Assembly (NCBI GenBank): GCA_963971425.1
Contig: OZ020518.1
Span: forward strand, 28,526,770-28,590,769
Length of the DNA stretch: 64,000 nucleotides
Reading direction: 5' to 3'
Origin: Bryoerythrophyllum caledonicum
Taxonomy: Eukaryota; Streptophyta; Bryopsida; Pottiales; Pottiaceae
Position 1 is the stretch's first letter. Every line of letters begins with the position of its first letter. Position numbers and translations under genes: made by a program. This document shows, piece by piece, positions 2,946 to 62,957 of the stretch. The notes below the pieces were generated by a model that saw only the letters and a program-made list of their open reading frames with translations, was not told where the DNA came from and ran no database searches.

Positions 2946-5900
2946 ATGGCTACCAAACCTTGGTCTCCTTGGTATATCGAAATCACTGAAGTCCAAGGCA
3001 GGAAGACCAACTCTGTCCGATGTAGTCTTTGTCACCGCATTTTTGCAAGAAGGCTAAAACGACAGCTAAGTCATCTCGGGTACGAAGAACTCCTTGGCAA
3101 GCGCAACAGCGGTGTTGGCCTCTGCACCAAATTGACAACCCGCGTACAGACTTTATTTTAAAATTGTCGTGGCCACTATCCAAAACACAATGGAGAACTT
3201 TTCTCCGAACATTGCCCCGCCCTACCATTGAAATCTGCGCCTGCCTCAGGATATAGCATGCCCAAGTCCACCGGTAAAGATTCTTGTGTAGGGTCCACTC
3301 AAGCCCCCCCCCGTGATTTTACCATCAACCATGGTTGAACCGACCCCCACCTTCCACGACTTCACCGAACAAGGGAGTATAGGTGCCACCTTCCCCAGAT
3401 TGGTGAGGCAATCCGTATTCAAAGAGGGCTTTCAAGAAGTGGAGCGGCAGGAGCTAGACAAAGTGTGGGCGAAGTTTTTCTAAGAAGCAAACTTGCCGTT
3501 TGCTATAGCTCGGAATGTTGCGTTCAAGGAAGCCGTGATGAAGACTGCCTCTTTTAAAAAACCAGATGTCCCACCCTCTTACCATGACATTCGGACAAGG
3601 TTGTTGCGACAAGTGAAGGCTGATTTGGAAGCACAACTTAATAAAAGATTGTTCGAGAGTGTTCGGAAGTTTGGAGGAACTCTAGCCATAGATGGATGGA
3701 CATCTGTGACTAGTCGTCCTTTGTGCAATGCAATGCTCGTGTCTCCCGCTGGAGAGCTCATTCTTGGGAGTTGTAGATACTACAGACAAAGAAAAGAACG
3801 CTACGTACCTCGCATCGATCATGTTCAAGTTCATTGAACAAGTTGGCCCCCACAACATTGTTCAGGTGTGTACTGACAATGCTCCAGTCATGCTCAATGC
3901 CTCAGAATTAGTCGTCAAAAAATATCCACACATATACATTCAAGGATGTCCCACGCATGCCATGGACTTATTGTTGGAGGACTGGGTGAAGGTTACATGG
4001 ATAAAAGAAACTCTCGACAAGGCCAAGTTCTTGGTTAAGTTTGTCAAGAATCGGCAAATGTCCCTTGTCGTGTTTCATAAACACGAGGCCAAGTTCAGCC
4101 TATTGCTACCCAGGCAAACAAGATTTGCATGTAATTTCACAATGATAGATCGCATGTTGAAGGTCAAGGAATCATTGGAGCAAACCGTCGTTGATCGTAA
4201 ATGGCGGGCATACGCCTCTAACAAGTCACTCTCGGCTAGAGATAAAGTAGTCATTGCTCGAGCCATCAAAAGAGTGGTTCTAGATGAGCGTTTCTAGGAG
4301 CAGTGCACGAACTTCCAGGAGATGGTAGCCCCTGTAGTGTATGCGCTTCGGGAATTCGATGCCAAGGAACCTTGCATGTCCAAGGTTTTGTACATCCTTC
4401 GCAACCTCGAGAAGCATGTTCTAGCGTTGCGTAATGAACCATTTTGTCTCGATAGCGATTTAGCGTTCATTGCTGAGGACGAGTTCTACGCACGAAAACA
4501 AATGATAACAACGGATTTACATTCCGTCGGTGCACTTCTCAATCCTTATTTACTCCATGACGAAGAGTTGGCCGATGATCCGGATGTCATCACAACATGC
4601 AAACGAGTACTACAAAAGCTATGTACTCCTAATACTTACCCGGACGTGGTGAACGAGTTCCTAGCATTTTGAAACAAGGATGTACCATTCCATGACATAT
4701 TGGATCCTAAGGACCAAAAATGTTCTCCGTATGCTTGGTGGAATTTTGTAGGTGCTTGTGGAAAGCTCCTTGCACCAATTGCAAAAAGAATACTAGTGCA
4801 GATAGTGTCATCTTCTTTTTGCAAAAGCAATTGGAGTAGCTACTCTTTCGTCCATGACAAGAAACAGAATCAGTTATTACCGGGAAGGGTTGATGACTTG
4901 GTCTTTGTATATACGAACTCAAAGTTGCTCGCGAATGCAAAGTTGACGGATGAAAAGAGGTGGTACGCGGAGAACTTGGATTTAGAGGATCCACAACCAC
5001 GTGAGTCGGATGACCCGGACTACTCTGACAATTCAAGCACCGGTGCCCTTGCCAATAACGATGCAGAGCATCTAGACGATGACATCGACAGCAGCCCTTC
5101 TCAACGTATGGATCATACTCACGATGCCCCAATCACCGAGTATGATTTTGTCGATGACGACGTTCTTGCAAAGAAAGAAAATGACTTCTTGCCCATAGCG
5201 CGGTACTTGACTGGAGATGGCATGGTCAATAGCAATAATATCCTTCGTCGTAGACCGACTCGGCTCCTGGAAGACACGAAGGATAAGGGAGGAGAAGATT
5301 TATCATCCTCACGTGCAACGGCACTACACGGGCAAAAAATGCAAGGGCCCTCAGTGAAGAGTGTTGAGGAAGGCAAGCACCACGGTCTCGCACTTGCGGA
5401 GAACCCCGAGCAAACAACGAAAGAGCTATTCCTAGACAACACAGTTGTTCTTGGGGAGAAAACTATGGAAGGCGGTACTTATAGCGGTACAAGGAGTCCC
5501 ATTCATGTCACGAAGAAGAAGGCATCCTCCTCTAAGGATCAACCGTCCTTGCATGGTCACGCATCGCGGTCTCTATTTGCAACCCCTCTTGCAACGGTCA
5601 CTACAACCAATTTGAAATCCTCCCACGGTTTGGTGTCCCTTTCAAAACATGTGCGACCCCGAACGCCGCAACGCCAATCCGATGGCATACCTAGTGATGG
5701 CGATGTACCTCTATCTAAACTCTTCATACATCACCCCGAGGTTGAAAGAGGTTTAGCGTTACAACCTAGGCGGCCTACAAACGACACGAAGAAACGTAAA
5801 GCTCCCATGTATCCATTTCTTTGCATGCGACCTAATAATCCCACTGATGTCATTGGAACTTGCAAGAGATTCAAAACCATTGAAACATTGTCGATCAGAC

Positions 5901-6013
5901 ACAGAATCAAACAAGAAGCCACCACGGATAATGAAGACGATCCTTTGGGATCTAGTGGAGCTGAAATCAAAGAAGACAGCGATTACAAACTTCCTACCGA
6001 CATGAATGAGTAG
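2946..6013 (+). pseudogene. hAT-family transposase (BED finger, DUF659, hAT C-terminal)
   Basis: Cut-and-paste transposase of the plant DUF659 branch of hAT. The first ORF starts at ATG 2946 and carries a BED-type zinc finger (CSLCHRIF followed by a His and a later Cys). A second segment (3493 on) has the DUF659 signature LAIDGWTSVTSRPL and MLVSPAGELILG. After a frameshift near 3770 comes GVVDTTDKEKNATY and VQVCTDNAPVML. The dimerisation region (about 4775-4915) is seen as APIAKRILVQIVSSSF and NQLLPGRVDDLVFVY. In-frame stops lie at 4295-4297 and 4670-4672; there is also a frame change before 3493. An acidic and basic tail of about 330 residues after the hAT C-terminal domain is unusual. It faces a convergent ORF (6533-9693) within what looks like the same element. 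Family call is strong. Confidence 0.88.
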
Positions 6014-6532: not shown

Positions 6533-9500
6533 TTACCTTGAAGAAGAAGGCTCGTCGGTATGATCCGTTCGAGTGCTACAACGAGTCCGCGGTCTCTGGC
6601 TTGGCCTAGCAATCATTCCCCCCTCTTCGTACTCTCGATCCACGGCTGCAATTTTCCTATGCATCTCCGACCACCAACTATCGTCGCTGTCATTGCCATT
6701 ATCCCACTTCCGCTTCCCGCTAGGATTCATCTTCTTTGCCGCAAAGATTTCCATGGCCTTCTTTATTTGTTCTACCACCTTGTTCACAAAAGCGTCATTC
6801 TCTTGGAATGACACCAATAATTCCCCTTCGGATTTCTATAGCACATTATGCCAATAGCCAATGATGTCCCCAATCCTCCGATCAAATGCTTGCACCGCAT
6901 CCCAATAAGAACAGTTTACGTCTGTAGAAGAATCCTCTTCCGTTGAACTCCGTAGCTTTGCGGCCTCTTCCAACTTTGCAAGGACCAGGGCTCTTCCTAC
7001 CAAAGTACGATTATACTTCTTTTCCTCATCTCCCAACTCAATGCCATCGTTTACCTCATGTCACACACCATCTTCTCCCTTCTGAGCTCTCCTTGGAGGA
7101 AATCGGAAGAAACGCTTGTGCTCAGTGCTCCAATTGCCCCCAAAGTTGCGGCAAAACAATTCTTGTTGCTCGCCATCTTTAATCTCTCGTGCCCGTATCT
7201 CCACCTCATAGTCTTGTGTCATCTCAAAGAATAGATCAATTTCCATCTCATATTCCTCGTATAGTTGGTGACAAGAAAACTCACTATTCCACATTAGTGG
7301 TTTTTCCCACTCACGATAATTCAAGGATTTCTTCGGAAGTTGATCTAAGGGGAGATTCCATCGGTTGAACTCGTGCCCTGGTGGCATAACATCTCGTATC
7401 TCCATCACTTTGTAGAATCTTGTGCTAATTGGAAAGCGACACATAGGACACGCCAATTGTATCATAAAACTTGCGGAAATGCAAGTAATATGAAAGTTAT
7501 AGCCACATTGGCCCAACATATATGCTCCTTCCGGACCGAAATGATCTTGGTACAAGCTGCATTTGTCATTGAAGAATGCCGGAACATGGTCGCAAATATG
7601 GATTACTCTTCGCTCCGATTCTACAAAATGTGATGAGAAGGTATTAAAGGGCACCTATCCTTCTTCCACTTCTAAAGCCCAGTCAATACCATAGCTCTTT
7701 CCCTTCCGATGATAATTTGTGCGATCCATCATCTTCGATACATCACCCCAAATAGTAACCTTTGTAGACTCATGTCCACGTTGTTCAACGAATTTCTTCA
7801 ATCTCTCCAATGAGGTATCCACGAGTTCACATGATTCTTGTGATTTCGCCGCAAATTTCTTGAAATCAGGTTGTGCTTTCAAGACCATGGTCTCCCTGTC
7901 CTGAAGGCGATGAACCCAACCCAACCAAGGCATTGTGTTCTCGTTGCATGGTGTGTTGTCCACCGATCTCAATGTCCTCCGGAGTGTCTCTAGTTCCGCT
8001 CGTGCCTCGTCCCTCTCCTTATTTGTCACCTCTAACTTCTGTGACATCGATTCCATCTCCCCCTCACATTCCATTATTGCCTTCCTTTTTCCAGGCGCTT
8101 GTGGCCGTACTTGGCTACTCCCAACTGGTACTGCCAATTGAATAGAAGAAGGCCCGGCGGTTTTGCTAGATTTGACCGGTGTGGCATCCTCTACATCTTT
8201 CCATACAAACTTGGAAAGAGCGAGGTCGTCCGAAGTTCCGTTGCTATCCTCAATGACCACCACATCCACCTCAGGAACCTGCGCATTCATCTTCTCCGAC
8301 ATCTTGTTAAGGAGTCTGTCACTGGCCTCCAGCTCCCGCTTGTTCCCTTCCAATTCCCATTTAAGGTGTCTAGTGAAGGTTTCATTTTTGAAAGCCTCGT
8401 TTTTCAAATCCATCACTTTCTCAATTAGCGCGACCCTTTCTCGAAACATCGGCAGTATACAGGAAGCCAATGTGTCAAAGCCATTAGCGCCTCGTAGCAC
8501 ATCGGAGTGATACTTGAAAACGCATGAGTTATTTTTAGAAGAGAAGGAGCCATTGCTGCAAGAATTTTGGTTCCGTTCTTCAAATAATAAGCCACTCCCA
8601 CTACTCCATGTATTTCGGCCCATTCCCTCAAATCACTTCGCACATCGACTAAGATGACAAAGTTTCTTTACTTCAACGCACGCTTCAGTCCACTTAACAC
8701 TGAAGTCGAGCAAGTCTTTGAACTTATCCTTGTTTGGCATGGTTTGAAGCATTTCTTCAATACTGGAAATCAAAGTACCCTTGTAAATCATCGGGTCATT
8801 GGAATTTGGTTCCAATGTTTCCCATGTTAAAGTGCTTGGCCCGGCATCTATTGTCTCTGGTGCCATGCCTTCCAAAGTTTGAACGTTTGGAACAGCGATT
8901 TCTTCTCCATCCGTATTTTTTCCCCCTCGGTCTGCGTTACCATCGTCTTCACCTCCTACAATCACAATATTCGGAATATCTAATTGTACGGGATCTTCTA
9001 CCGTCGTTACCTCCAAAGTCTCTTTGGGGATTGTGGTTGACAATATATTGTCGACTACAATGTCCAAATGTTTGTCAGACTCCATCACAACGGCAACCTC
9101 CTCCACCGATGGTTGTATTTTCGACATGGTATCCACCGCGCTCATCTGACGAGGCTTTTTCTTCAACTCCAAAATAGCCTTGGTCAAGGTCGATTCAAGA
9201 TTGAATAAATCAAGAATATGCTTCTGATTTCGCTCAATCCTAAGCGGATATTGTTTAGTAGTCGGAAACGTGCTCCAATCCACCTTTCGTTTCAACACGA
9301 CCTCGGTGTATACCATTGATAGTAGGCTGTAATTGAAAAACCCTTTGCTTCTTGGGCGATTCCCAAACAAAGCCCGCCAAACCTCCTCCGCACGATAAAT
9401 GAAGTGGTCATCTTTGCACATCGACGGCTTGCAAGCAAAGTCGTATGACTTATGTGGCAATTTCTTGGCCAAAGTTTATCGATGTGGTACATCTTCACGT

Positions 9501-18507: not shown

Positions 18508-20418
18508 TTGGCAACCTCATCTCTAGAACGTGATCTCACCCCCAAACCACGAGGTAGGAAGAAGAAGGCACTGGAAACTAACCCCGCCCCACAACAACAA
18601 CCAAAACCCCCAATCCATCTCTCAGACGACCAAGAAGACACCCCTCTCACATTCTCTAGAACGAGCCAAAGGCGTAGGATTATCACTTCTCTCCCCCTAT
18701 TTCCTGACCACACAAATCAACTCTCTCCCGTCAAACCTTGGAACAATATGGAACAACTTCAGAAGGAGCCCAGCAGTACCACCGAAGCCATGGACATAGA
18801 AAATGGAGAAACCATCTCCAAGATGATCTGCAAGGATAAAACCTCTATCCTTGACCCCCTAGAAGTACAACACCCTGCAAAGAAACAAAGAGGTAGCACC
18901 CCAGACCCAAACCCTAGCAGTAGTACCCCAGACAAATCCACATTCCACTTCTGGTTGGGCTTCCTCAATATGGAGAAGCTTGCGAAGGACACAAATCTCG
19001 ACCCACTATTTAGTGGTGAGAGCGTTTCTGACATGATGATCAGAGGAGTCCCCAAGTCAGAGGCAGAGGAAGCCATGAGTGCCACAATATCATACCCAAG
19101 AATCCCACAAATGCTATATCCTAAGGTTAGGGAAGATGGTGTTGAGGGGCAACATTATAACCTCACACAACTCCCATTTGATATTGCCACTAACCCTGAT
19201 ACTGGCCTGTCATATGATTTTCATATAGCCATCATGTTCGAACTACCTAAGACCCCACTATTCCACGATGATGTCAAAAGGCTTGCTAACGAGAGACTCA
19301 TTAAAATGGACATTCCCCTTGGTACTAACCTTTTGGATTCCCTTGCCATCCACTGCAAAGGGATGAAAAAAGAAAGACAAAAATATGTCTTTCCAGGACT
19401 AATCAAGATGCACTTCCTCAACCCAGCAACAGATGCCATCTCTCTACTCAAGGGCACACGTTATTTCATGTTACAACTGGACCCCATAGGACCGTTGTCC
19501 TTGGGAAAAGTTTGCAAGACATGGCATGCGGTGGCACGGCAAGGTCTATCTGTCAACATCAAGAGCGACAACCTATGTGGTATTCCTGCACATACCTTGT
19601 TTCATAATGTGGTTCTTAATGGCTTCACTCGTAACCTTGAGTTTGAAATCACTGATGTCCAGAAACAGGAGAAGGAGCCCTTCGTATGGATTGAGGCATC
19701 CACTCCTACTCAAGCAAAGAAACAAGCAATGCACCAGATTACGACCTTCCACGAGATCATCCCTGCGAAGCCCAGCAACTCTGGAACCTTTACAACCAAT
19801 GATAGGGCCAAGAGGGATGCGTTTACACTCACATTACCTTAGCTACCAATCCTGTTGAGCGTGGTTGAAACCACGGAGGCCATCACGAAAGCTTTGGAGG
19901 CCAAGAGCATTGTCAACATTTGGTTCCACCGGCAGATTAGTGGCAAACACAATGGCTCTGCCAATGTGCAAGTCACTAATCCTATTGTCTATAGACAATA
20001 CCTTAACCAAACCTTCAACATTGGTTGTCACCCAGTTCAGATTAGACCCCACCGCCATAGTCTTGATGGCATTGACCCCCCTTCCACCACCTCGGTAGAG
20101 AAATGGGGATTCAATGACATAAACACCGCCTTGGTGAACACGGTAGCCGCCATCAACCCCACCGCCGTTCCCAACACCAACATACGCGAAGAGATGGCCG
20201 CCATGGTGGCGGATGGCCACGAAAAACTCCGCTTGGAGTTATCCACTCTCAAGAGAGACATCATATGAGAAGCTAGAGAATACACAGACGCCCGCAACGC
20301 CGAGGTACACTCTAAACTTGATGATGTTGAGAAACTAATGAGCGTCGCTTTGTCTGTGATGAAGGATATCAAATCCAGTCGAGAGAAGTCATCCCTCCCC
20401 TCCTCGGATGACCCGTAA
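18508..20418 (+). pseudogene. LINE A ORF1 (nucleic-acid-binding type, family not recognised)
   Basis: First ORF of the LINE, presumably an RNP component. The frame is open upstream of 18508 after a TAA at 18505-18507, so the true start may lie further 5' or at ATG 18748. Stops at 19840-19842 (TAG) and 20266-20268 (TGA) interrupt it before the terminal TAA at 20416-20418. The N-terminal 150 residues are Pro/Lys/Gln-rich. The core (about 18940-20150) is shared with copy B ORF1: WLGF, NLTQLPF, DFHIAIMFEL against DYQVSIHFEL, GKVCKTW against GKVCKTY, FEITDV against FEVTGV, and LDGIDPPST against LDGSNKPST. The C-terminus is charged and heptad-like. No CCHC knuckle or RRM motif is evident to me. The ORF2 frame opens 8 bp after its stop. 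Confidence 0.7.
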
Positions 20419-20426
20419 AACGTGGA

Positions 20427-23400
20427 TTGACCAAAGACCGCCCACGAACTTTTCAACAACATGGTGATCACGAAACTCCTACATACCTAGCTACATCTCC
20501 CTTGTTAGTCACATCTCTTTCCATTACTTCATATATCTACCTCATTACTCCCCTTTTCCCTCTCCACCTGATAGTATTGTTAGTGATATATCTCATTAAA
20601 ATCACTTCTTATTGCTCTCTCCACACACCTAGTACCATCATCACTCTCTCTACACCTTCTACCTCCCTAGAACTTGTAGCTCCCTATAGGTATTTCCTTG
20701 TAAACACATGTCATTGGTATGAGTATAAACCCATGAGAAGGCCACAACCTCCCTCATGGGCTCCTCTAACTTTTATGATAAAGTTACATGATCAATACCA
20801 CCACAAAAATATACACACTTCTTGTCATTGCCAATGGCATTGGCATATTACCAAAATTTCCACTACCACACACATACCACACACCAAAAAACACAAAATA
20901 CCACCACAACCTTGCCAACAACAAAAGCAACTAATCACAAACAACACATATAATTATCCTCACACCTCACTACCAATAAATTACAAAACACTACTATTAC
21001 CTAACACACTCATTCAATTATTGTGCAAAAACAAACACCAACCGCAAACTACGCTACCACATATATTCATCACCCAAAAAGCTAAACACCTCCCCCACTC
21101 ACACACTATCACAAACACATACCTTCCAAAACACCCACATACACATACTATCCACATACAAAATAAAAACACCCACCTACCCCCAAACAAACAAGACTTT
21201 AATAACATAACAAAGCCTCAAAAAATTATACATAAAACAAAAACTTTAAAATACAGCACTAAACATACATATCACAAACTCCTACTACTTCTAGGAGGAG
21301 ACATAGAAACCAACCCGGGACCCATGCCTAACATACTAAAAAGACACCCTACATCACATAAGAAAAACGCCAAAATATACTTCATACCTAATACCATAAA
21401 ATTACAGCCGGAATATAGACACATTGCAAAAGCCTTCGCACCTTTCTTAAAAAACACACATACATTACACCACACACATAACGGGACACATCCAAACATT
21501 GCCCAATACATACAACAAAAAAATACGCATCCACCACCCCACATTCTATATGCCCTAGTAGTCATTACCCATCCACACATAGATGAATGTAACCATCTCC
21601 TAAATCCACAAAATTTGAACACAATTACATGGACCAATACACTTCTACAAACTTTACTAAACTTACAAAACCCGCCAGAACGACACATTCACACTCCGCA
21701 TCCGTATATAAAATTTCTTGAAGACAACCAAAATATTATAAACCATGAGTACTCAATACATAAGGAATTATATGACTTCTTACATAGTCAAGCCATACCC
21801 CCCTCAAGTGAAACAATAAAACTAAAATTCCCTTACCTCCCTAACAACCTCATCAATGAATCACTAAAATGTTTAAACCCTATACCTGAATACATCCACC
21901 CACCTCCACCTCTTCCCTACATCCCTCCACAAAATCACAACATTAGATCAAATCAAGAAAATACACACATAATCACATGGAATGCCTCCTCTCTAAACAC
22001 TGCCCTTCCTAGCCTACAAACACTGGTCACACACACAGACACACCACCGGCCCTCATAGTTATACAAGAAACAAAATTAACCGCTACAAAATCTACAAAA
22101 TATATACAAAATATATTTCAAGACTATAAACTCATCTTTAATAGTACACATACACTTACAAGATGCATTCAACAACGGAGACCATACACACCGGGCCGCG
22201 GTGGCCTCCTTACACTAATACACAAAAAATATGCCTTCCCGGGCAACATCAACAAAATCCCTACCCCAATGCACATATCACCTTACATTCAAATAATCAA
22301 AATCACTAACCACCCACTACAACCCTGGTTAATCTTCCACATGTATATGCCATCTCATCCCGAAGATGCTAGATTTATCATAGACATACAAAACACTATT
22401 ACATCTCAAATAAATAATAACCCCAATCATACATACCTATTATGTGGTGACTTCAACAGAGACATAGCATTAATTGGTCGCCAAAATGAAAATCATAACA
22501 CCCCCCCTCAAAACATTCATTACCAGTGGCGCCGCTTCACAGAAAACCTAAGTTTCACTTACATCAATACCGACACACAATTCTCTAGACAAGGTGGCTT
22601 TAATTATAATGACTGGAGTCTAATAGATGGATTCTATATAAATACAAACAATAATACACAATACACCTCTACAACAAACAAGGATGTTATTCTCAACTCG
22701 GATCATTCACCTATACAATTGCACATCCCAAATAACACATTAATTAATAGAACTCCTACAATCCTAAACAATGACACTATACGCATACTCAACCCCATTC
22801 CAAAAAATAATATAGAAAAATTCAACACAAAATTCTTTGAAGAAAATTCTATACAAATAGACTCCCTCATAAACACTCTTGAAAATAACAATCAACTATC
22901 ACAAGTACAATGGCAAGAAGCATGGCACACCCTAGACAAACTCATCAATAAAATCTCTGATACACTAGAACAAACTTGTAGAGCACATCCAATACCTCAA
23001 ATGACAAATATGACTTCTCAACAAGGCGGGTACTTACCCCGCAAACTTTCTAAAACTTGGAAACAACACCTAACCACATACCATGCTATACGAAAAACCA
23101 TTAGAATTTTAAACAACAACCCTCAATGGTGTAACCACCCTATATGCACTGAACTACTTACTCTACAACACATCCAAATCCCCACCCCGCCATCTCCGGA
23201 CCTTCCCCATGATACATGGATAAAAGATATCGCACTAATTGCAAAAAAAGCCAACATACAAGCCAGGAAAATAATCACAAAATACACCAAAGATAACATT
23301 AAAAAAGCCGTCTCAAAATATAGACAATTATACGAAATCAGCCCCAAAAAATTTAACAAAAAAGTCTTTAAAAACCTTGAATCCCCGCCTATGGACTGTA

Positions 23401-26400
23401 TCAGAGATCAATATAATAATATTCTAACTAGCCCCGAAGACATTGCGAATGAAATATTAAACCAACAAACAATAACCAACAGACCAACAATACCAACATG
23501 CAATTATCAACCACAACATACAAACAAATGTACATGTGCATTATGCCGATACCCATGGCATGACCTGGATGGATATACCCTTGACAAACAAGGCGAATCT
23601 GAAATTCCACTACATAAATACCTTAATAGAGCCACGTATGACACATGCCTTCAAAATCTTGGTAACAATAAAGCCCCAGGTCCAGATCGCATACCAAACT
23701 CAATACTCAAAAACATGCCTCCAAGATTTCATAAACTATTATTCCTATTCTTCTCCCACTGCTATAAACAAAAACAAATACCGGACTCATGGAAATCAAG
23801 TACAACAATCTTACTATACAAAAAAGGCGACCCATCCATACTACCCAACCATAGGCCAATCGCACTAGCTACCACAATATATAAACTCTTTACCAGCACA
23901 CTCACTTCTATACTATCCTCATATGGTGAAAAATTCAAAATCCTACATGATAGTCAAAAAGGATTTAGAGCCAAAAGAAGTGCCGCTCGACAAATTCAAA
24001 CTATAATAGCCGCACTAGAAGACGCAAAATTTACTAACCAAGATATATACATATTATACGTTGACTTCAAAAATGCCTTTGGCTCAATAGATCATGCCCG
24101 ACTACTAGCAATAATGATGGACCTTGGTTACCCAAAAGAGACAACTACACTTGTTGGAAACATCTACTCCCAATCATCCACATACTACATTGGCGCACAC
24201 ATTGGGAAAACAAAACCTATACCTATCCAAAGAGGAACTATACAAGGGGACACTCTAAGCCCATACCTATTCATTATATTTTTAGAACCACTACTCAGAT
24301 GGCTTGAAAGAGGCAACATCGGATACACTTTTGGCACATCACAAGTCACAATAAACTCCGCCGCATACGCAGATGACCTAGCCACCATAACTAACAAAAT
24401 CAAATCAATCCAAATACAACTCAATAAAATTGATAGATATTGTAAATGGGCTGGTATCGATGTAGGTGTCCCAAAATGTGTTGTTACCGGATGCCCAAAC
24501 AAATCCAAATTAAACCCTACCACTTTCAAAGCCCTAATACAAGCCTCCAACATCAATTACAGCAACCAACCAATCCCTACTCTACACCAAAATCTACACT
24601 ACACCAAAATGAACCATACATATACCTAGATACAAATCTTGTTCCCTCACTAAAATGGAAAATCCAAATTCACACTACAACCACGAAACTCATCAAACAA
24701 TGCAAAGAACTAATAGCATGTCCGGCCACCATGAAACAAAAAATAAAAATGGTTGATACCGTACTACGCCCAGGTGTGGCATGCAGTTTCTACGGAGTGC
24801 CATACTCTATGCCAGCCATCAAAAAACTTGATAAAAAAAAATCGCCATACAAAAAACCATGTGTGGATTACCAAAATGTATGTCAAACGCAATAACCCAA
24901 CTCCCACATAACCTATTTGGACTGGAAGCTTTCTCCCTCAAAAACGCATATCTCCGATGTATAGGCGAACAACTACAAAATGCGTTAAACGATAAAGGTA
25001 GACTTGGGAAAATATATAATGGATTAACTCAATATGTCCTTGCCCAATACGGTGGCGCCGAATACATACCCAGAATTAAAAAAAGTGATTGCATAAGATC
25101 ACCAATCACACAAACATTCTTCTTATTAAAACACATAGCTAAAATCCACCTTAAAAGTACACTCCCAAACTTCCCCATCAACCCTACATCACTAGAGATA
25201 CTATGGCGCCAAGAAACACTAAACCACAACACACTCAATGCCCAACTCTCCCAAAAGCTTCTACAAAAACTCCTCTCAAAAATATCTTCGAACTAACCCA
25301 AATTACTTTATCCAACGGCACACACATCATGAACAATGAAGACTTCAAAACCTACCACTTCACCCCATCCAAACTAATAAAAAGTGCCCTATATGTTACT
25401 AAACAACTATTCTGCCATCCAACATGCCCCACTACATGTAATACTCCTTGTAACATACGCCCATACTCTCATATATTCAAAAATTCATTCATCACCCTCA
25501 ACAATAACGTATACCCAAGAAATATCCCCACACCAATCAATCCCCCTAACCCCCCACATACATACCATCCCCATCCCTCAACATACATCCCCAAAAATCC
25601 TACCACATACCCCATTAATAACATCATACGCCATAAACACATCCAAAACACATACACAAATAACATACAAATACCTACACTAAATATTTATGCCAATGGC
25701 AACACAATAATAATACATACAATAAATGGCTTCCCCAAAGAGACCTGTTTCCACAACACGACACCAATACTTCCACACATAATACCGAAAAACTAAAACA
25801 ATACTACCAAAAAATTCAAAACAAAACATACTTGGATATCATCCTAGCCCACCACCCCCAAGAACAATTTTCAGACTCAAGATCAGTAACACCACCCATA
25901 ATTATCCCACTCTTAAACATCTACACAACGGAATGTAACCCCGAAAATGATATCCTTACATCCTCAAACACAATTCAAATAGATAACAACCAAGCACATC
26001 TATACGAAGAAAATGGCCGACATTTACACACCATCCCCGTCACTCGACTCCAATGGTTATGGAACCAATATATACAAAATTACAAACCCCAACAAACATC
26101 GAACCAATGACCCAACCCTTCGAAACCGAACTAATATGGCTATACCAAAGATACAAATACCGAATACCAAAAACTGACCTCCTAAAAAATGCGCAATACA
26201 CAATACCCACTCCCATTTTAGACTCACTAATCTCATCCTTTAACATCGAACAATCATACTTTTCTTCCGAGGTCACATGTTCTACCAAACTAAAAAAATT
26301 CTACGCACCTTATGAAAGAGACAAAATATTCGGATCCCTAGGTAAGGCCTTTGACTATAAATGGATCGGTAATGGTATAGCTCACCTCCACAACGAGAAT

Positions 26401-28284
26401 GACATGGAACAAGCCATACATTGGGCTAGACTTGCCGCCAAACACAATCCAAATAACACAAATACAAACATCATCACACCAAACAACAATTGGTACCAAA
26501 ACAACAATCAACATTTTAACCCATTTCCAGATTCACATATCATTGCAGTATTTGAGGCAGACTCAATACCATACGAAGAACCTACTACTCCACCCGAGCT
26601 AAAAAAAACCCAAATCGAGCCATCTACATTACAAATATTATGCGTCCATCATCAAAATCAAACCCTTGGCTCCCTAGAACAACTTGCTAAACTTACCTTC
26701 ATAACAGACAATTTAAACATACACCGGCTATACACAAAATTGGCCCCACCAACACCTATACAAACCCCTGTAAACAGAAGTAAAAATTGGTCAAAACTAA
26801 ATTATGCCAACAACACATTAAACTACTCCGTCACACCTCCCCCTCTCTCAAACTATCCAACTCATACCACACCAAAATTTAACCCCGCACACAGTTACTA
26901 CACCGATGTCTCCTTTAAACCACCAGAACAAATTAGCCCAGGATCTTGGCGCACAGAAAAAGCTGGCTATGGCATATATTATTCTACCAAGGAAATTAAA
27001 CTAGCCAAAAGGCTCCATGGACTACAAAATATCCTCAGAGCAGAACTCATGGCCATCCACAAAACACTACAAATCATCACAACAAAATATAACAATGAAT
27101 CCGCACATATATTCACCAATTGTATAAATGCACTCTACCTATTAAACACTCAAATAACACACCCTACTCTTCACAATAGCCACCCCGACCAAATCATATT
27201 AACGTCAATGGTCCAAATGTTACAAAACCGTACAAAAATCACAACCCTCCACAAAGTGAGAGCCCATGCCAACATTGATGGCAAAGAACAAGCAGACAAA
27301 TTAGCAAAAGAAGGCCGAGAAAAAACACACAAAAATGCTAAAGACCCACACGAACATGCCCATGCCACCCCATACTACTTTCAAAAAGAAGATTGGCCTT
27401 CCAAAGAAGATACCCCCGACAAAGGCCCGATTAGATTTTTGGGCAAATATCTCAAAAAACAAGACTCCTACAACAACCTTGATACAATCTCAGACAACTT
27501 CCCTAACATAGAAAAGTGGACTAACAACAATGACATAGACAATGAACTCTCTACAAATTTTTGGAAAAACTCCATCATCACCGACTCACACATCACATGC
27601 CTTATCAAATTCCGTACCGGTCAATACATGGGAAATGCCCGTAAACAACTCTTCTTTGGAACAGAAAGATTCCCATCCATAATATGCCCCATATGCCCCC
27701 CAACGGACCCCAACACATGGCTTCATGTTCTACTCAAATGCCAAAACCACCACATACACTCTCTAATTGTTAGAAGACATAATAAAGCGGTATGGGAAGT
27801 CCGAAAACTAATCACCTCCTACAATAAATCAAGATGCTATATACTAATGAACGTTGGCACCTTTAATAACAATCCACAAGAAAATACGGTCCCTCGTTGG
27901 CTACTCCCATACTCATGTCAGACTCAAAGGTGTCACTGCAACGCTAGGCTCAAACCGGACATCCTTTGTGTTAAAGGTTTACCATATAATGATCCACCAC
28001 CAAATAACATCAACCACGACCACACCATTCAATTCATTGAATTCACATATTGCAACGATAGATTTTCCCCAGAAACAATCCAAAATAAAATAGATAAATA
28101 CCAACCCCTTATTGACGATATCATTGCCCTCGGATGGAATGTGGACCCCCTTATTTCCTTCAACAATCAAACCACCTTTAAAAACATTAACACCATCGCT
28201 ACTCAATATGCCATGTCCATTTTACTACATAAACGCAAAATTGAAAACAACCAAACCCTTCCCGATACACAAGACCCCCCTTAA
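20427..28284 (+). pseudogene. LINE A ORF2: 2A, APE, RT, RNase H, CCHC and restriction-like nuclease
   Basis: A very long polyprotein. The first 4.2 kb is one open frame (20427-24629). Domains in order: an N-terminal A/C-rich segment ending in a 2A motif (21297-21323); APE endonuclease (TWNAS 21975, IQETKL 22062, CGDFNRD 22443, SLIDGF about 22617, SDH about 22698); a Cys-rich CTCALC segment (about 23533); reverse transcriptase (YVDFKNAF about 24057, catalytic YADD 24366-24377); a C-x3-C-x3-C-x3-C cluster (about 25411); an unassigned block (26210-26590); RNase H (YYTDVSF about 26896, RAELMAI about 27037; the third acidic residue is Asn here, Asp in copies B and C); a CCHC knuckle (CPIC about 27684); and KPDI (27952) with FIEFTY (28033), as in R2-type nucleases. 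Frameshifts occur near 24600, 24840, 25270, 25800 and 26090. A deletion of about 25 residues near 28148 removes part of the last domain. Confidence 0.88.
21258..21323 (+). other. 2A (CHYSEL) ribosome-skipping motif in LINE A ORF2
   Basis: The in-frame sequence is HKLLLLLGGDIETNPGP followed by Met-Pro. It fits the 2A consensus D-[V/I]-E-x-N-P-G-P with the usual hydrophobic run before it. Skipping would occur between Gly (21318-21320) and Pro (21321-21323), separating about 298 N-terminal residues from the APE-RT protein. Known use of 2A in LINEs: trypanosome L1Tc and several metazoan non-LTR elements. Function here is inference from the motif and its conservation in copy B. Confidence 0.85.
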
Positions 28285-28878: not shown

Positions 28879-30320
28879 CAAGAAGAAGAACGCCGATCCG
28901 CAAAGGGGCCGGCGTGAATAAAGGGTGTGTTTGTTCCATCACTAAGACCATGCCCACCAGACACCGTGTCGGGGAAGGCTTGGTTGTTTTTCAATTTTGC
29001 GTTGGTGTAGTAGAATGGACATGGCCTGTTGAATGGCAACGGTGTTAATAATATTGAAAGTGTGTGAAATTGTTTCGATGGAGATTTTAAAGGTAACTCA
29101 AAGGGTATTTATAGATGGGATAAAGGTGGTGGCACGAGCACCGGCAGTGATTACAATAAGCGGGTCCATTTTCCATCCTAGGGCAACGATGTCATTAATA
29201 AGGGGTTGCCGGGTTGGTATTCATTTATTTTGTTTTCAATTGTTTCCGGGGAGAATCTGTCATTACAATATGTGAATTCGATGAATTGAATGGTATAGTC
29301 TTGGTTAATGTAGTCGGGTGCAGGGTCATTGTATGGTAGGCCCCAAATGCAAAGTATGTTTGCTTTGAGTCTAGCGTTACAGTGACATGGCTAAGTTGCG
29401 CATGTACATGGGACTCGGGAGTAGCCAAGGGGGGACCGTATTTCCTTGTGGGTTGTAACTTGTTATTAAAGGTGCCGGCATTCATGAGGATAAATCATCG
29501 TGATTTGTTATGGGAGGTAAATAGTTTTCGAATTTCCCATACCGCTTTGTTATGTCTTTTGACAATTAAGGAGTGTATGTGATGGTTTTGGCATTTTGAG
29601 TAGAACATGGAGCCATTTGTCGGGGTTTGAGAAAGTGCATATGGGGCATGTTACATATGGGAATTTTTCTATTCCAAATAAGAGTTGTTTTCGGGCGTTT
29701 CCCATATATCGGCTATTAGCAAATTTGATGACGCATGTTATTTGTGAGTTCGGGATGATGGGATTCTTCCAAGAATTCGTAGAGAGTTCATAGTCTATTT
29801 TGTTGTTGCCAACCCATTATTCTATATGAAGGAAGTTTTCTTCGATTGTGTCAAGGTTGTTATAGAGGTCTTGTTTCTTGAGATATTTGTTCAAGAATAA
29901 AACCGGCCCTTTATCCGGGGTATCCTCTTTAGAAGGCCAATCTTCTTTTTGGAAGTAGTATGGGGTAGCATGTGCATGTTCGTACGAGTCTTTGGCATTT
30001 TCATGCGTTTTTTTGCAGACCTCTTTTCCAAGTTTATTTGTTTGTTCGTTTCCATTGATATTGGCGTGGGCTGTAACTTTGTGAAGGGTTGTTATATGTG
30101 TTCAATTTTGTAACATGTGGACCAACGACATTAAAATAGTTTGGTCAAGATGGCTATTGTAGAGGATAGGGTTTGTTATTTGGATGTTTAGTAGATAAAG
30201 TGCATTGATATAGTCAGTGAATATGTGTGCGGGTTCGTTGTTGTGTTGTGTTGTGTTGTGATGATTTGTAGTGTTTGGGGTATGACCATAAGTTCTGCTC
30301 TAAGGATATTTTAGTGTGTG
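28879..30320 (-). mobile_element. LINE copy C, 5'-truncated
   Basis: Opposite-strand fragment covering RNase H to the 3' end. Reading 30320 down to 28879 gives RAELMVIPQ, IFTDYINALYLLN (keeping the RNase H Asp lost in copy A), a KGPVLFLNKYLKKQD segment, CPICTFSNPDKWLH (CCHC), and IQFIEFTYCNDRFSP of the terminal nuclease. Several stops and shifts are present. The 3' UTR is shortened, but the hairpin (28891-28914) and GAA/TTC tail (28880-28890) remain. Similarity to copy B ends abruptly at about 30315-30320, the usual 5' truncation of LINEs. Confidence 0.85.
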
Positions 30321-54012: not shown

Positions 54013-55472
54013 ACAAGAAGAAGAAGAACGCCGGTCCCCAGAGGGGGCCGGCGTGAATAAAGTGTCCGTTCATTCCACCACTAAGTCCATGCCCACCGGG
54101 CATGGGTTAGTAGTATGGAACTACTTCCTCCTTTCGAGGGTAGACACTATGTACCCAGTAACAAGTAGCCAAGAACAAAGGACCATAGGTCCCAAAAGTC
54201 TACATAAGAGGGAGGGCGTGAACGGTGAAATGCAAATGTTAGTCTATAGAGGGGGGCCCAAAGTGTCAGGAAGGGGTTGGTTGTTTTCAAGTTTTCGTTT
54301 ATGTAGGAGGCTCGACATAGCATGTTGAATTGCAATAACGTTAATATTTGAAAAGGTGGTTTTGATTGAAATGATGGGGATTTTAAATGTTTCTTCAAGG
54401 GTTGTTATTGAGGGAGTGAAGGTGGTGGCTCTAGCACCCGCGGTGATGACAATGAGGGGGTCTACTTTCCATCCTTGTGCTTGAATATCGTCCAGTAGTG
54501 GTTGATATTTATTTGTTTTGTTTGCAATAGTGTCCGGAGAGAATCTATCATTGCAATATGTGAATTCAATAAACTGAATAGTGAGACTAGGGTCTATGTG
54601 GTTTGGTGGGGGATCTTTGTATGATAGTCCTCTAACACATAGTAGGTCCGGTTTGAATCTTGCATTACAGTGACATCTTTGAGTGCGACATATGCATGGT
54701 AGTAGCTAGGGAGGGACTGTATTTTCTTGTGGGTTGTCATTAAAGGTTCCAGCATTCATGAGAATGAAGCAACGGGATTTGGTTTATTGTATAAGTAGTT
54801 TACGAATAGCCCATACGGCTTTGTTGTGTCTTTTGACAATTAGTGAGTGTATATGGGGGTTTTGGCATTTGAGTAAGACATGAAGCCATGTGTCCGGGTC
54901 CGTGGAGTTGCAAATTGGACATGTTATTGTAGGAAATCTTTCTATTCCACAGAAGAGTTGTTTGCGGGCATTTCCCATGTATTGTCCGGTGCGGAATTTG
55001 ATTAGACATGTGATTTGTGGATCCGTAATTATGGGGTTTTTCCAAAAATTGTTGGACAATTCATTGTGAATGTTTGGGTTGCCGGTCCATTTATCAATAT
55101 TGGGGAAATTTTCTGTAAGTTTTTCCAGGTTATTTACAAGATCATGTTTTTTAAGGTATTTGTCCAAGAATCGTATGGGGCCTTTATCGGGAGTTTCGCC
55201 CATAGAGGGCCATTCATATCTATGAAAGTAATATGGGGTGGCATGGGCGTGTTCGTATGGGTGTTCGGCATCCTTGTGGATTTTTTCTCTTCCTTCCTTT
55301 GCTAGTTTGTCAGCTTGTTCATTGCCGGCGATATTAGCATGAGCTCGGACTTTGTGGAGTGTAGTAATTTGTGTGCGATTTTGGATCATTGCAACCATAG
55401 ATGTAAGGATAGTTTTGTCCGGGTGGCTGTTGTGTAAAGTGGAGTGTTTAATGTGTGTATTAAGAAGATGTA

Positions 55473-55840
55473 CCGTAGGTGAACCTCTAGTCCGGCATAA
55501 ATTAATTAGAAAAGCCCATGCCGAATTAAGTGAAAAATGTTTTTTTGAAAATGCCGAAATTGTAAAAATTGCATATTTACAAATTTTGGCACATGTAGAG
55601 ACATCAAAGGGGATTAAGGCTTGGAAAAGTCTTCATCCAAGGCAATCATGCATAAGCACTTGAGTTTGGAATCCCAAGGTCTTGAGTTCAATTCCCATGG
55701 GTGCCAAAACATGCCAATATATAGTAGTATTTGATTTTTTGCCGAAAATAACATTATTGTAATTTTGAATGCCGAATGTCATTTTTTCACTTTAATTAAT
55801 TATTCGGCATTAAGGTGCCGAACTAGAGGTTCACCTACGG
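55473..55840. mobile_element. 368-bp TA-flanked MITE inserted in LINE B
   Basis: Inverted ends CCGTAGGTGAACCTCTAGT and, complemented, the same (one mismatch within the following bases). TA is duplicated at 55471-55472 and 55841-55842. Removing the element and one TA restores the RNase H reading frame across the site (IFTDCINV then LHLLNT), matching copy A, so the ends are exact. TA duplication fits a Tc1/mariner (Stowaway-like) MITE. Inside is a B-box-like GAGTTCAATTCCC (about 55684). Confidence 0.9.
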
Positions 55841-58800
55841 TAATACATTTATGCAATCTGTAAAAATGTGAGCCGCTTCATTTGGGTATTGAGTGGTGAT
55901 TATCTTAAGGGTTTTGTGTATAGCCATCATTTCGGCTCTTAGAATATTTTGGAGTCCATGTAGTCTTTTGCCTAATTTTATTTGTTTGGTTGAATTGTAT
56001 ATCCCATAACCGGCTTTTTCTCGGTGCGAATGTCCCGGGCTTACTTCGGTTGGTTCTTTAAAGGAGCCGTCAGTGTAATAGCTAAAGTTGGGGTCAAATT
56101 TAAGGTCGATATTAATTTGGTAATAGGGGAGGGGGAGGCTCAATTTGATAATTGGTAGTGCGGAGATGATTGTGTGGGGGGGTTTAGACCATTTTTTGTT
56201 ACGGTTTACATGGGTTGAAATAGGTGTGGGAGTGTGTAAGGTGGGGCGTGAGTGGTGCAAGGGTTCGGGCATGTAGGGAGGCATGGAGGTTAACAAAATA
56301 ATTGTTTAGAAATATTGAGTGCACTTTTTATTAATTTGTGAGGGGTACCGTAAAATATTTTGTAGCTGTTGTCGTCCATAAGTTGTGTTCCATTTGGAAG
56401 TGTAATTTGTTTTAGATCGGTAATGTTTGCAGAAAAAAGTTTTTGTAAGAGTTTGGCGGATAATTGTTGGTCAAGTCTAGGGAGGTTATGTATTTCATTT
56501 GTCCAATTTTGTTCAAGCGGCGCGGGGCCTAGTAGGAAATCTTCTAGTGTGCTTTTTAGAAATGTTTGGCCTTCTGTTTTGAGTAGAAATAGTGTGCGGG
56601 TAATGGGAGACCGAAGGCAATCAGATTTTTAAAGCCTTTTGAGGTATTGTGCTCCTCCATAAATGGCAAGATGTGCCGAAGGAGTCCGCTATAAATTAGT
56701 CCTAATCGTCCCTTGTCGTTAAGTGCATTTTGGAGTTGTTCTCCAATGCGGCGTAGATAGGCATTTTTGAGGGAGAAAGCTTCTAATCCGAATAGTTCGT
56801 GGGGGAGTTGTGTTATGACATTGGGCGTACATCTAGGGAGTCCGCATACTTTCTTTTGAATGGCTATGATTTTTTTATCAAGTTTGTTGATGGAGGGTAT
56901 GGAATAAGGGACCGCATAGAAACTATATGAGATACCCAAACGTATGACGATATCAAACATTTTAATTTTTTGTTGCAATGTGGCCGGATATAGTGTAAGT
57001 TCATTGCATTGTTTAATAAGTTTTGTAGTAGTAGCATGAATTTGAATTTTCCATTTTAACGATGGGACTAGGTTTATTCCAAGGTATGTGTAGGGTTGGT
57101 TTTGGTTGAGAACTGGAATTGGTTGGTTGCGATAGTGGATATTGGTAGCTTGAATAAGGGCTTTGAAGGCGATCGGATTTGTTTTGGATTTGTTTGGGCA
57201 TCCAGTTACGGCACATTTTTGGACCCCAAGTTCCATCCCGGTCCATAGACAAAATTTGTCTATTTTGTCTAATTGAATTTGGAGTGATTTAAGACGTCCA
57301 GAGATGGCCGCTAGATTGTCGGCATATGCGGCTGAATTTACCGTGACTTTTGAGGTGCCAAATGTGTAGCCATTATTTCTTCTTTGAAGCCATCTCAATA
57401 GAGGTTCTAGAAAAATAATAAAGAGGTATGGGCTCAATGTATCGCCTTGGATGGTACCACGTTGGATGGGGATAGGGCGTGTGTTACCAAAGAATTCTCC
57501 AATGTATGTAGTGGTAGATTGGGAGTATATATTGCCAACCAGTGTGACTGCGTCTACCGGGTACCCAAGATCGCTCATAATGGCTAGGATGGTCAATGGA
57601 GCCGAATGCATTTTTTAAGTCGATGTATAGTATGTAAATGTCTTTATTAGTGAATTTTGCATCCTCAAGGGCGGCAGTGAGGGTTAAAAGTTGTCGTGTG
57701 GTACTTCTCTTGGCTCTAACCCTTCTTGGCTTTCGTGTAGTATTTGGTGTTTTTCCCCGTAGGCCGATAATATTGATGTTAGTGTGCTTGTATATAATTT
57801 GTAAACGGTGTTAGCTAAGGCAATAGGTTGGTGGTTAGGTAGCACGGATGGGTTGCCTTTTTTGTATAATAGGATTGTTAAACTTGTTTTCCAAGATGCG
57901 GGAATGGATTTTTGTTTGTAACAATGAAGGAAGAATAGTGATAGAAGGTCATGGAATCTTGGGGGCATGTTTTTTAGAATTGAGTTAGGTATATGGTCTG
58001 GGCCGGGAGCTTCGTTGGTTCCTAAATTTTTTAGGCACATGTTGTATGTGTCTCTGTTGTAATATGTGTGGAGGGGTGTTGTTGGTTTGCCTCTTTTATC
58101 CATGGTAAATCCGTCCAAATCATGCCACGGGTATTGCCTGACTCCACACGTGCATGTTGGTGCATGTTGTGGTTGGAAGTGACATTGGGGGGTGGATGGT
58201 CTATTGTTTATGGATTGCTGAAGATGTATTTCGTTTGCGATGTCATCTAGGCTGGTTAGAATGTTATTGTTTTGATCTAAAATACAGTCTAGTGGCAGGT
58301 TTGTGTTATTTTTAAAGATTTTTCTATTAATCCTTTTTGGGCTGGTTTCGTATAATTGATGATACTTAGAGATGGTTAGTTTTGGCAATATAAATTGTTT
58401 TCCAAATAGTGTGGTATATGGCAAGATGTTGTTTCCACTTTTTTGCTAGTTTTCTCGGGAGATACCCCCCTTGTTTCGAGGTTCTAGGTGTGAGTTGTGA
58501 AATTGGGGGTGCTTTACAAACCTTAATATTGTAGAAATTTCATTAATAAGTTTGTCAAAAGTCGTGCAAGCTTCTTCCCATTGTATGTGTGTGAGGTGTT
58601 GGTGGTTAGAAAAAATATCTATAAGGGAGTCTATTTGTAGTGAGTTTTTTTCAAAGAATATTGTGTTAAAGTTATCAAGGTTTTCTTTTGGGATGGGGTT
58701 TAGTATTTTAATACCATTTGAATTACTGATTGTGGGAGGTCTATTTATAAGGGTGTTGTGTGGTATATTGAGTTGGATTGGGAAGTGGTCCGAGTTTAAG

Positions 58801-60158
58801 TTGGTTGTGGTATTGGTGATAGTTGTATATCGGGTATGGTTAGGTGTTTTAATGTAGAATCCATCAATTAGGCTAGTGTGTGTGTAATTAAGTCCGCCTT
58901 GGCGAGAGTATTGTGTATTGGTTGGGATTAGATATAATTCGAGGTCAACCGTGGAATTTTGCCATTGATAATCTATGTCTAGTGGGGGGGAAGAAACCGC
59001 TCCGTTTTGTCGTCCAATGAGGGCGATATCTTGGTTAAAGTCTCCGCAAAGTATTATTGTATGGTTAGTGTGTGTATTTATTTGTAAAGGGATGGAATTT
59101 TGGATCTAAAAATATGTCTAGAGTCTTCTGTGTGCGAGGGCATGTAGAGATGAAGAATGAGCCATGGTTGGAGGGGTCGGTTAATAATTTCAATTAGCCG
59201 GGGTAGAGATTTATTAGTAATATTCCTGGGGAATATTATATGATTGGTATATGAGCATGAATAGGGCTCCTCTTACCGGTGTATATGACCTTCGTTGTTG
59301 GATGCATCATGTGAGAGAATGAGTGTTGTTAAATGTAAGTTTATAATCAGGGAATGTTTTTTGGATGTAGTTTGTGGATTTAGTAGCGGTTAGTTTAGTT
59401 TCCTGTATGGCAATTATGGCGGGTGGTGTGTTGGTATGGGTGGTTAGATTGTGGATGCATGGTAAAGGAGTGTTTAACGTTGAGGCGTTCCATGTAGTTA
59501 TATATGTGTTTCTATTGTCTATAGTGTCATGGTTACAAAGTGGAGGGGGAATGTAGTCGGGTATTGGAGTGGGGTGTGTGTAATCATGAATTGGTTCAAA
59601 GCATCTAAAAGCTTCAAGGATGAGATTGTGCGGGAAGTAGGGAAATTTTAGTTGTAGTTCATCGGGGGAAGGGGGTGGGGTTTGGCTATGAATGACGTTA
59701 CATAGGTCATTGTGTACTAGAGAGGTTTTGTGTTCAAAGAGGTGTTGGTTTTCCTCTAGGAATTTAGTGTATGGGTGGAGTGTATCTATATGTCTTTCAG
59801 GGGGATTATGTAGAGAGGATAGGGTGTTTAGTAATATATTTGTCCAATGTCTTGGGTTTGTGTTGTTAGAGTGTTGGTTGGTGATATTGTTGCATTCCTC
59901 TATTGAAGGGTGGAGTGTGGTAATTATGGCAAATAAGATACGTGTGGGAGGGTGGTTGTTTTTTTGATGTATGTAGCGGGAAATGTTGGGGTAGAGGGTG
60001 GAATAAGTTTGGTGAAGTATGTGATTATTTTTTAAGAGAGGTGCAAACGTAGATGCTAGGTGTTGATATTCGGGGTGGAATTTTATGGTATTTGAGATGA
60101 AATATATTTTTGGTAATCTTTTGTGTGTTTTTGGGTGGTTGTGGAAGATATTTGGCAT

Positions 60159-60185
60159 TGGGCCGGGGTTGGTTTCTATGTCTCC
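60159..60185 (-). other. 2A (CHYSEL) motif in LINE B ORF2
   Basis: Encodes GDIETNPGP preceded by CKLLIILC and followed by Met-Pro. It uses different codons from copy A (CCC GGC CCA against CCG GGA CCC), so the peptide rather than the DNA is conserved. Same position, just before the APE domain. Confidence 0.85.
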
Positions 60186-60239
60186 GCACAATATTATTAA
60201 TAGTTTGCAATGAGTAATATTTATGGCTATTAGTGGGAG

Positions 60240-60814
<575 letters not shown>

Positions 60815-61371: not shown

Positions 61372-62957
61372 TTAGTTTGTCGTATCCATTTTGTTCTCAA
61401 TGGCACGTTGCTCTCGTTCTGTTGCTTGTGTTTCTGCCGCCATGATGGTTGCGATGAGTTGGGACCGGAGAGTTGACATTTCTCTCCTTAGGGATTTGAC
61501 CGTGTTCGCTTGTACCATATCCGCATATTGCCTTGCTTCTTCTACAATCTCTCCTTTCATGGTCTTCATTTCTCTACGGAGTTGTTGTAGGGTGACTCCA
61601 TTACCTTTGGCTGGTCCATTCTCCATGGCAATCACCGCGTTTGCTAGTGCCGCATTTACATCCGTAAAACCTAGTCTTGGTAGTTCTTCCGTGCTCGGTT
61701 TGTTGCTGCCGTCTAGGCTCTTAGGGTGAGGGGTGAACATAATGTATTTTCCATGTAGTTTTTTACTTTGTTTAACAATTTTTTTGTAAACGGCCGCATT
61801 TAGGCATTCAATATTGCAAGTTCTTACATGTCGACTATATTCAAGTTTGAAAAATGTGTCCACCACATTTTCCTCACCAAGTATCGACTTTATTCCCTCC
61901 ACAAGTGCTTTTTCGTTTTTTGTTTTGTTAAGGTTTTTTGCAATAAGGATCAGTCAGTTCTTTTTTGCGATCTCATCCTCATCCATTTTCCGGGTTGCGA
62001 AAACGGACACAAAAATCTCATTATAAAATGAGATTTTATAGTCCTTTATTTTAGCAGCTTGTTCCGGGGAGGGAGTTTTGATCCATGCAAATTCTGAAGA
62101 AGTCTTTTTTTCCACTCCTGTTACTTCAAAATCATAACTTCTTGCGAAACTATCTTTCACAATCTCCGCATGCAGGTGGAATGGTTCTATATTGACAAGG
62201 CTAGGACTTGTTATTTTTCCGAAAGGAGATGTGAGAAGGCCAAGGAGTCGTATGTTTTGCATACTTTTCCTTGGTGTGGAATCCCTTCATTCAAAATGAG
62301 GATGAAGGGCCTAAGCCCTTGCAATAAGCCTTTTGCATCGATATCCGGGTTTTTTAGATGGAGTTTCACCACACCAGTCCAATTGTCGGATTTGTGGTGG
62401 CAAAAAATAGCTATTGGTTCACCAATGTGTGACCCTGTAGGTATCCCCATATCTTTAAGTCTTATTTTTACGATGTCTAGTACCACGTGCTTTGTCCATA
62501 TTTGATTCCCCAATTCAAAGTGAATAGAGACTTGATAGTCCAAGGCAAAGCCATCTTCATCCACCTCAACTTCACTTGGAAGTTGGGTGAGATTAAAGTG
62601 GTTTCCTTCCTTTCCATCGGCCCTTTTAGAGGGCTATTCCTCTTGGAGGATAAATGGGAATGTTGGCATTGCCTCAAAACTCTCACATGCTTCCTTCTCG
62701 TTAAAACCTCTCTTTACCATCTCTTCTATGGTAACTATAGGCACCTTTTCTTCCCCATTTTTCTTTGCAATGATATTCATTGCTTGGAAGCCTAACCAGT
62801 ATTTGGTGGAAGGCAAACTGGTTGCCTTCACCTTTTTCTGGGTGGAGCTTGTAATAATCAAGGCATTTTTAGTTACATTCAAAAGATTGGGGTTTTCATC
62901 AAGCACTTCGACAAATAAACGTTTGGAGGGCGTGGCGCTAGTTTGTTGTTGAGACAT
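61372..62957 (-). pseudogene. LINE B ORF1
   Basis: Starts at ATG 62955-62957 (MSQQQTSATPSKRLFVEVL) and ends at 61372-61374. In-frame stops at 62634-62636 and 61954-61956 and a frameshift near 62220 interrupt it. Shared with copy A ORF1: KYWLGFQAM, NLTQLPS, DYQVSIHFEL, MGIPTGSHIGEPIAIFC, GVVKLHLKNPDIDAKGLLQG, GKVCKTYDSLAF, FEVTGVEKK, FAWIKTPSPEQA and LDGSNKPST. The last 100 residues (LRREMKTMKGEIVEEARQYA onward) are strongly coiled-coil-like. The two ORF1s are clearly homologous but much more diverged than the ORF2s. The fold is not recognised. Confidence 0.75.

Follow-up and report, generated by a model that had tools for sequence, protein, structure and literature searches.

A probable Dualen/RandI-type retrotransposon with two predicted nucleases and a PCIF1-like domain in the moss Bryoerythrophyllum caledonicum

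The 64,000-nucleotide stretch of contig OZ020518.1 analysed here (positions 28,526,770 to 28,590,769 of the forward strand of the Bryoerythrophyllum caledonicum assembly GCA_963971425.1; hereafter the window) contains three decayed copies, A, B and C, of a long interspersed nuclear element (LINE), a retrotransposon without long terminal repeats (non-LTR). Its second open reading frame (ORF2) combines an apurinic/apyrimidinic endonuclease (APE)-type domain with a restriction-like endonuclease (RLE) of the R2 type. The copies are laid out as follows.

18508..19842, + strand: ORF1-like frame upstream of ORF2, copy A, with homology to copy B and to the genome copy L052
20427..28284, + strand: ORF2 region, copy A
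21273..21323, + strand: 2A-like peptide HKLLLLLGGDIETNPGP near the ORF2 start, copy A, containing GGDIETNPGP
21975..22724, + strand: APE-type (exonuclease III/EEP, endonuclease/exonuclease/phosphatase) domain, copy A, matched by Pfam and NCBIfam
23829..24488, + strand: reverse transcriptase (RT) core RVT_1, copy A
26107..26784, + strand: PCIF1-like domain (cap-adenosine methyltransferase fold), copy A, with the motif AHLH
26899..27318, + strand: RNase H domain, copy A
27580..28281, + strand: predicted R2-type RLE of copy A, including the CCHC knuckle and lacking 25 residues
28562..28576, + strand: (TTC)n tail, 3' end of copy A
28965..30310, - strand: copy C, arranged tail to tail with copy A; RNase H part plus decayed C-terminal nuclease
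54250..60206, - strand: copy B, decayed ORF2 (tblastn), interrupted from about 55829 to 55473
54250..55026, - strand: RLE of copy B, one frame with two stops
62011..62801, - strand: ORF1-like region of copy B

All motifs named in a preliminary description of copy A are present: TWNAS, IQETKL, CGDFNRD and SDH in the APE domain, and the CCHC knuckle, KPDILC (27952), IEFTY (28036) and K-x2-KY in the C-terminal nuclease. RVT_1 (PF00078, E 3.2e-27) and RNase H (PF00075, E 5.8e-9) are matched by Pfam, and a longer RT region extends across frame changes to about 25.4 kb. The APE domain matches PF03372 with E 3e-5 and 24.3 bits against a cut-off of 24.5 (Pfam, 20412-24626) and NCBIfam xth with E 2.9e-5, far below the family cut-off. 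That description had treated 20427-28284 as a single ORF and had not named the PCIF1-like domain; copy A is instead broken by five frame changes (at about 24.60, 24.84, 25.28, 25.79 and 26.11 kb), in addition to the residues lost from its C-terminal nuclease. 2A peptides occur in non-LTR elements, and the motif near the ORF2 start is like theirs, with D-x-E-x-NPGP preceded by a hydrophobic run; it is therefore regarded as a putative 2A peptide, with any separation of the products likewise putative.

The host assembly (437 Mb, 894 contigs) was searched with the PCIF1 family PF12237; 150 of 2614 candidates were scored, all above the cut-off, and 33 of these loci carry an open frame of 3087 codons. 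In L039, the one young copy analysed whole, all domains lie in a single open frame: 2A at residues 740-747, APE from 965, YADD at about 1761, the PCIF1-like domain from 2338, RNase H from 2602, CCHC at 2864, KPD at 2953 and IEFTY at 2981. PF12237 scores above the Pfam cut-off in this copy, which is identical over 8409 bp to a copy on another chromosome. KPD and IEFTY are retained in most genome copies, the losses falling in decayed ones (for instance KPN in L005, KRD in L010, IEFAY in L048). The 2A region is apparently duplicated in places: L039 (143-9403) has a decayed GGDINTRPNTT upstream of the good 2A, and the first frame of L040 (3-6267) has GGDMETNPRSM ahead of GGDIETNPGP.

A search with the RT matched 194 proteins; the counts below come from the 120 listed (121-122 in the fetched sets). 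Among the matches listed, all named relatives are from green algae (Haematococcus lacustris, Parachlorella kessleri and Pleodorina starrii), and most of the other rows are unnamed. Profiles grown from L039 were run on 122 proteins and detect RT in all of them, the PCIF1-like domain in 98, RNase H in 90, APE in 89 and RLE in 86. All five domains occur in 66 of them, invariably in the order APE, RT, PCIF1-like, RNase H, RLE, and the 24 relatives without a PCIF1-like domain all end at most 467 residues past the RT match. Accessory domains vary: precomputed Pfam annotation of the 120 listed proteins gives Josephin in 15 and OTU in one, others having PHD or C5 methylase domains; in P0025 and P0085 a cytosine-5 DNA methylase domain (PF00145) lies inside the same LINE protein. 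Ten of the 121 relatives that were fetched share the 2A motif (eight of these ten are named Haematococcus), so that it is not an addition particular to the moss element, as had been supposed. No relative turned up when viral contigs were scanned.

The assignment of the C-terminal domain to the restriction-like endonucleases, previously based on motifs, is borne out by its fold. A predicted model of the copy B domain (pLDDT, predicted local distance difference test, 89.9) matches the R2 endonuclease in a structure search (PDB 9nl3, 9nl2, 9dou and 8gh6), whereas the sequence of the domain gave no match in Pfam or PDB, the relation to R2 being revealed by the fold only. Among the 86 RLE-bearing members of the group, the four knuckle residues are kept in 85, 86, 86 and 86, R in 81 and H in 86, P in 77 and D in 83, and E in 79. 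This conservation and the fold match reject a chance RLE-like motif, and the CCHC knuckle, RH, PD and E/D residues together with the R2 fold identify the domain as a predicted R2-type nuclease. Unlike R2 retrotransposons, the moss element encodes an APE nuclease alongside the R2-type one in a single protein and has many unrelated target sites, with duplications of 12-13 bp.

Selection was assessed as the ratio of nonsynonymous to synonymous substitution (dN/dS; Nei-Gojobori) between genome copies, dropping pairs outside 0.1 < pS < 0.65 (pS, proportion of synonymous differences); the pairs are non-independent and dead copies are included. When all hits spanning 95% of the query are used and partial ones excluded (4 loci for the PCIF1-like domain, 30 for the RLE), the median is 0.19 (0.11-0.39) for the PCIF1-like domain (366 pairs, 32 sequences) and 0.08 (0.05-0.44) for the R2-type nuclease (72 pairs, 15 sequences, among them the broken copies A, B and C). 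A hand-picked first run gave 0.18 for the former (147 pairs; 19 of the 30 loci L009-L038, L039 and copy A) and 0.07 for the latter (31 pairs, 10 sequences), and the APE domain gives 0.09-0.11 (3 pairs). These low values indicate that all three domains are maintained by selection in spreading lineages.

The PCIF1-like domain matches the methyltransferase fold of PCIF1/CAPAM, the cap-specific adenosine N6-methyltransferase, in a structure search (PDB 6irv and 6irx). A two-row profile of the domain found no match in PDB, but the domain of one relative did match PDB PCIF1, with FASPLN aligned and NPEY lying on NPPF. Unlike PCIF1, the moss domain is embedded in a LINE protein and lacks an NPPF-type catalytic motif, having AHPH in its place in most family copies (AHLH in copy A), and because of this replacement it is not classed as an active PCIF1. 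It has to be considered whether the domain nevertheless methylates adenine in RNA or DNA and so marks the transcript of the element itself or its insertion. Across the 98 PCIF1-like domains, [DNSH]-P-x-[YFW] is kept in 30, the full [DNSH]-P-P-[YFW] in four and FASPLN in 31, which speaks for such an activity; with H-P-H-N at the catalytic place, canonical catalysis is improbable in the moss family, and we regard the proposal as unlikely.

That the segment is instead a captured piece of a host gene with no role in the element is very unlikely. The PCIF1-like part is present in all 90 relatives showing RNase H, it is under purifying selection with none of the 366 pairs reaching a dN/dS of 1, and of the 150 hits scored with PF12237 in the host assembly, the 30 that were returned as loci (L009-L038) all belong to the LINE family. 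These outweigh its absence from copy B, the degenerate catalytic motif and the precomputed Pfam annotation, which labels under half of the listed relatives. One locus considered as a host PCIF1 gene, C2:2883363, was rejected as a member of the same LINE family.

The founding description of Dualen/RandI elements is said to be that of Kojima and Fujiwara in 2005. In a full LINE tree, the Dualen RT reportedly falls midway between the clades that branch early and those with APE alone, and a cysteine protease domain has been reported for Dualen. According to the papers cited here, Dualen/RandI elements encode both nucleases (PMC3636483, PMC4640811), are listed from green algae only in a 2015 table (PMC4438587), lie near Chlamydomonas centromeres (PMC8226300), end in (ATT)n or (CTATTT)n in green-algal RandI (PMC3747384) and are interpreted as a stage of nuclease exchange in LINEs (PMC4640811). 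The moss element resembles them in having APE N-terminal to RT and RNase H between RT and a C-terminal R2-type nuclease within one protein, in its RT clade with green-algal proteins and in its microsatellite-like 3' tail, here (TTC)n. It differs in its moss host and in that Pfam scans of the moss copies found no Josephin/OTU cysteine protease, the scan of the young copy being insensitive and also missing RNase H and APE; such a protease counts as an accessory and does not define the group. The PCIF1-like domain recognised in the moss element is seen in relatives too, including Haematococcus; we found no report of such a domain in Dualen/RandI or in transposons in the open-access literature, although an earlier one may exist.

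The RT scores better against R2 (E 5.9e-30) than against L1 (9.3e-19) in PDB. A tree was built from 42 of the 121 relatives, chosen by hand, and the moss family, with three R2 and one L1 as outside rows; Dualen of Chlamydomonas reinhardtii is not among the rows. The moss family falls among metagenome rows within a clade of 44 (support 97/96) that includes five named algal rows from Pleodorina, Parachlorella and Haematococcus and stands apart from R2 and L1, the L1 row being long-branched and the bootstrap not fully settled. The preliminary description had offered a land-plant relative of Dualen/RandI or a convergent case, and the R2 fold, the RT clade with green algae and the conservation of KPD and IEFTY decide for kinship. 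Hence, the moss element very probably belongs to the non-LTR retrotransposons of Dualen/RandI type. The family is young and abundant, its ORF2 encodes, from the N- to the C-terminus, the 2A-like peptide and the APE, RT, PCIF1-like, RNase H and R2-type nuclease domains, and its mechanism is a matter of inference.

Convergence, in which an APE-only LINE of L1 or I type independently gained an R2-type nuclease, is highly improbable. APE and RNase H do occur in L1- and I-type LINEs, and the RT of silkworm R2 scores below L1 in one of two PDB searches. RNase H in other LINEs is also listed in PMC4640811. Nevertheless, turtle and zebra finch R2 score above L1 in both searches, the clade with green-algal rows excludes both L1 and R2, and the domain order is identical in the 66 five-domain proteins. 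Although young copies frequently sit inside older ones and frame changes interrupt copy A, a chimera of a nested APE LINE and an R2-like LINE is refuted by the single open frame of L039 and opposed by relatives from other sources that hold all domains, and can be dismissed as next to impossible.

Insertion sites were studied in 22 young copies, selected because their PF12237 scores are identical and extracted with a constant offset, a choice that favours full-length copies (21 with frames of 3087 codons, one with 3484); two of them, z0 and z1, have a flank in common and possibly derive from one event, so that the copies represent at most 21 events. Target duplications of at least 10 bp flank 19 of the 22 (12 bp in twelve, 13 bp in five, 11 bp and 15 bp in one each), starting with T in 18 of 19, and the remaining three have only 6, 9 and 7 bp. 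The tails are (TTC)n. In eight of the 22, the sequences on either side match another family copy in antisense and collinearly, placing the insertion inside it; a ninth is flanked by sense matches on both sides. A further five are antisense on at least one side (one of them also sense), one is sense on one side only and seven show no match. The element strand has a strong bias towards C and A, so its antisense strand is T/G-rich, and a local base preference for T/G-rich targets may account for the antisense self-nesting. Young-in-old nesting, often antisense, is seen at C8:15549000-15571999 (L052, L039 and L040) and C3:31671000-31688999 (L041 and L042) and brings to mind the Zepp elements, which nest in their own copies.

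We envisage that the ORF2 protein would copy its own RNA by target-primed reverse transcription. One nuclease would make the first nick and the other would nick the opposite strand some 12-13 bp away, RNase H would remove the RNA, and the PCIF1-like domain, with its altered catalytic motif, might hold the capped 5' RNA end instead of methylating it, a guess from the fold. The T/G-rich antisense strand of the element would serve as target, such that new copies often come to lie antisense inside older ones. By tentative extension, Dualen-type LINEs might be cap-handling machines with two nucleases, in which a PCIF1-derived domain recognises the capped 5' RNA end (members with NPEY or HPPF may methylate the first adenosine), thereby selecting complete RNAs and making the 5' junction, and in which APE and the R2-type nuclease each nick one strand at 12-13 bp spacing; we consider this possible, though doubtful. 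The PCIF1-like domain would link a LINE group to mRNA cap biology, and a moss with many near-identical open copies and both nucleases under purifying selection makes the role of each nuclease testable in a plant.

Several observations weigh against the Dualen/RandI-type reading with these functions. A fixed stagger cannot assign either nuclease to a strand, and a single nuclease could make both nicks; cap binding, too, is a guess from modelled structure. The PCIF1_WW match of copy A (PF12237, E 2.6e-7; Pfam, 25987-28281) lies slightly below the cut-off, and its PCIF1-like model has a mean pLDDT of only 73.7. Thirty-three of the 122 relatives have no APE match, most of them shortened, but P0062 has 1618 residues before RT; four of the 90 with RNase H have no RLE, and three of these stop at most 152 residues further on, but in P0120 another 773 residues follow RNase H. 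The ORF1 of older copies is absent from the young ones, which spread without it. Precomputed Pfam gives PF12237 in 49 of the 120 listed relatives and never in the named algal proteins, where the domain is detected only by profiles built in this analysis. As a guard against profile drift, a single-pass profile was made from the 49 Pfam-labelled proteins alone, with domain borders taken from the L039-grown profiles; it recovers the domain in all 49 remaining proteins, among them the 13 of Haematococcus type (E 1e-13 to 4e-26).

The ORF1-like frame occurs in older copies (A, B and L052, at 2363-3469 in the latter), and young copies start downstream of it, beside the target duplication. The frame of copy A is 34-36% identical to copy B (62801-62011, - strand) and 44% to L052, and matches no Pfam family at E 1. 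No target duplication was found for copies A and B in the window.

Preservation of the C-terminal nuclease in copies B and C had also been proposed. For copy B this holds, with KPDLLC, IEFTY and KYQ retained, although in-frame TAA and TAG stops fall within the 259 codons; copy C retains IEFTY, but KPD has become KAN and K-x2-KY has become K-x2-EY, and the domain is frameshifted. Copy B has the 2A-like motif CGDIETNPGP. Its ORF2 lacks the PCIF1-like segment (tblastn gap between 56296 and 56260), which is read as a deletion because relatives carry the domain. A long three-base repeat array lies at the start of its ORF2 frame (60190-60800).

Elsewhere in the window, a long inverted-repeat element at 45958-49886 has inner arms (46335-46895 and 48983-49543) that are 99% complementary over 561 nt and outer arms (45958-46141 and 49703-49886) that are 91% complementary, and is therefore probably young. 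A PIF1-like helicase piece, possibly of a Helitron, lies at 503-1610 (PF05970 and PF21530 in 503-1339), possible remains of a hAT transposon at 3728-6013 (PF05699 in 4700-6010), and a coding stretch of about 800 codons in one frame, with two inner stops and a terminal RING-like match, at 7061-9472 (- strand). In a comparison with PDB chains, one LHCII of the host, leaving aside the multi-domain fusion chain 9vfj, scores best with 8htu and 7xqp (470.5 and 468.6 bits), chains of the moss Physcomitrium; seed-plant chains follow near 440 bits, and 6kac of Chlamydomonas reaches 398.9 bits, which agrees with a land-plant host. Twelve contig ends fetched from the assembly show TTTAGGG arrays in six cases, N in two and no array in four, and the host genome gives 58 chlorophyll-binding matches.
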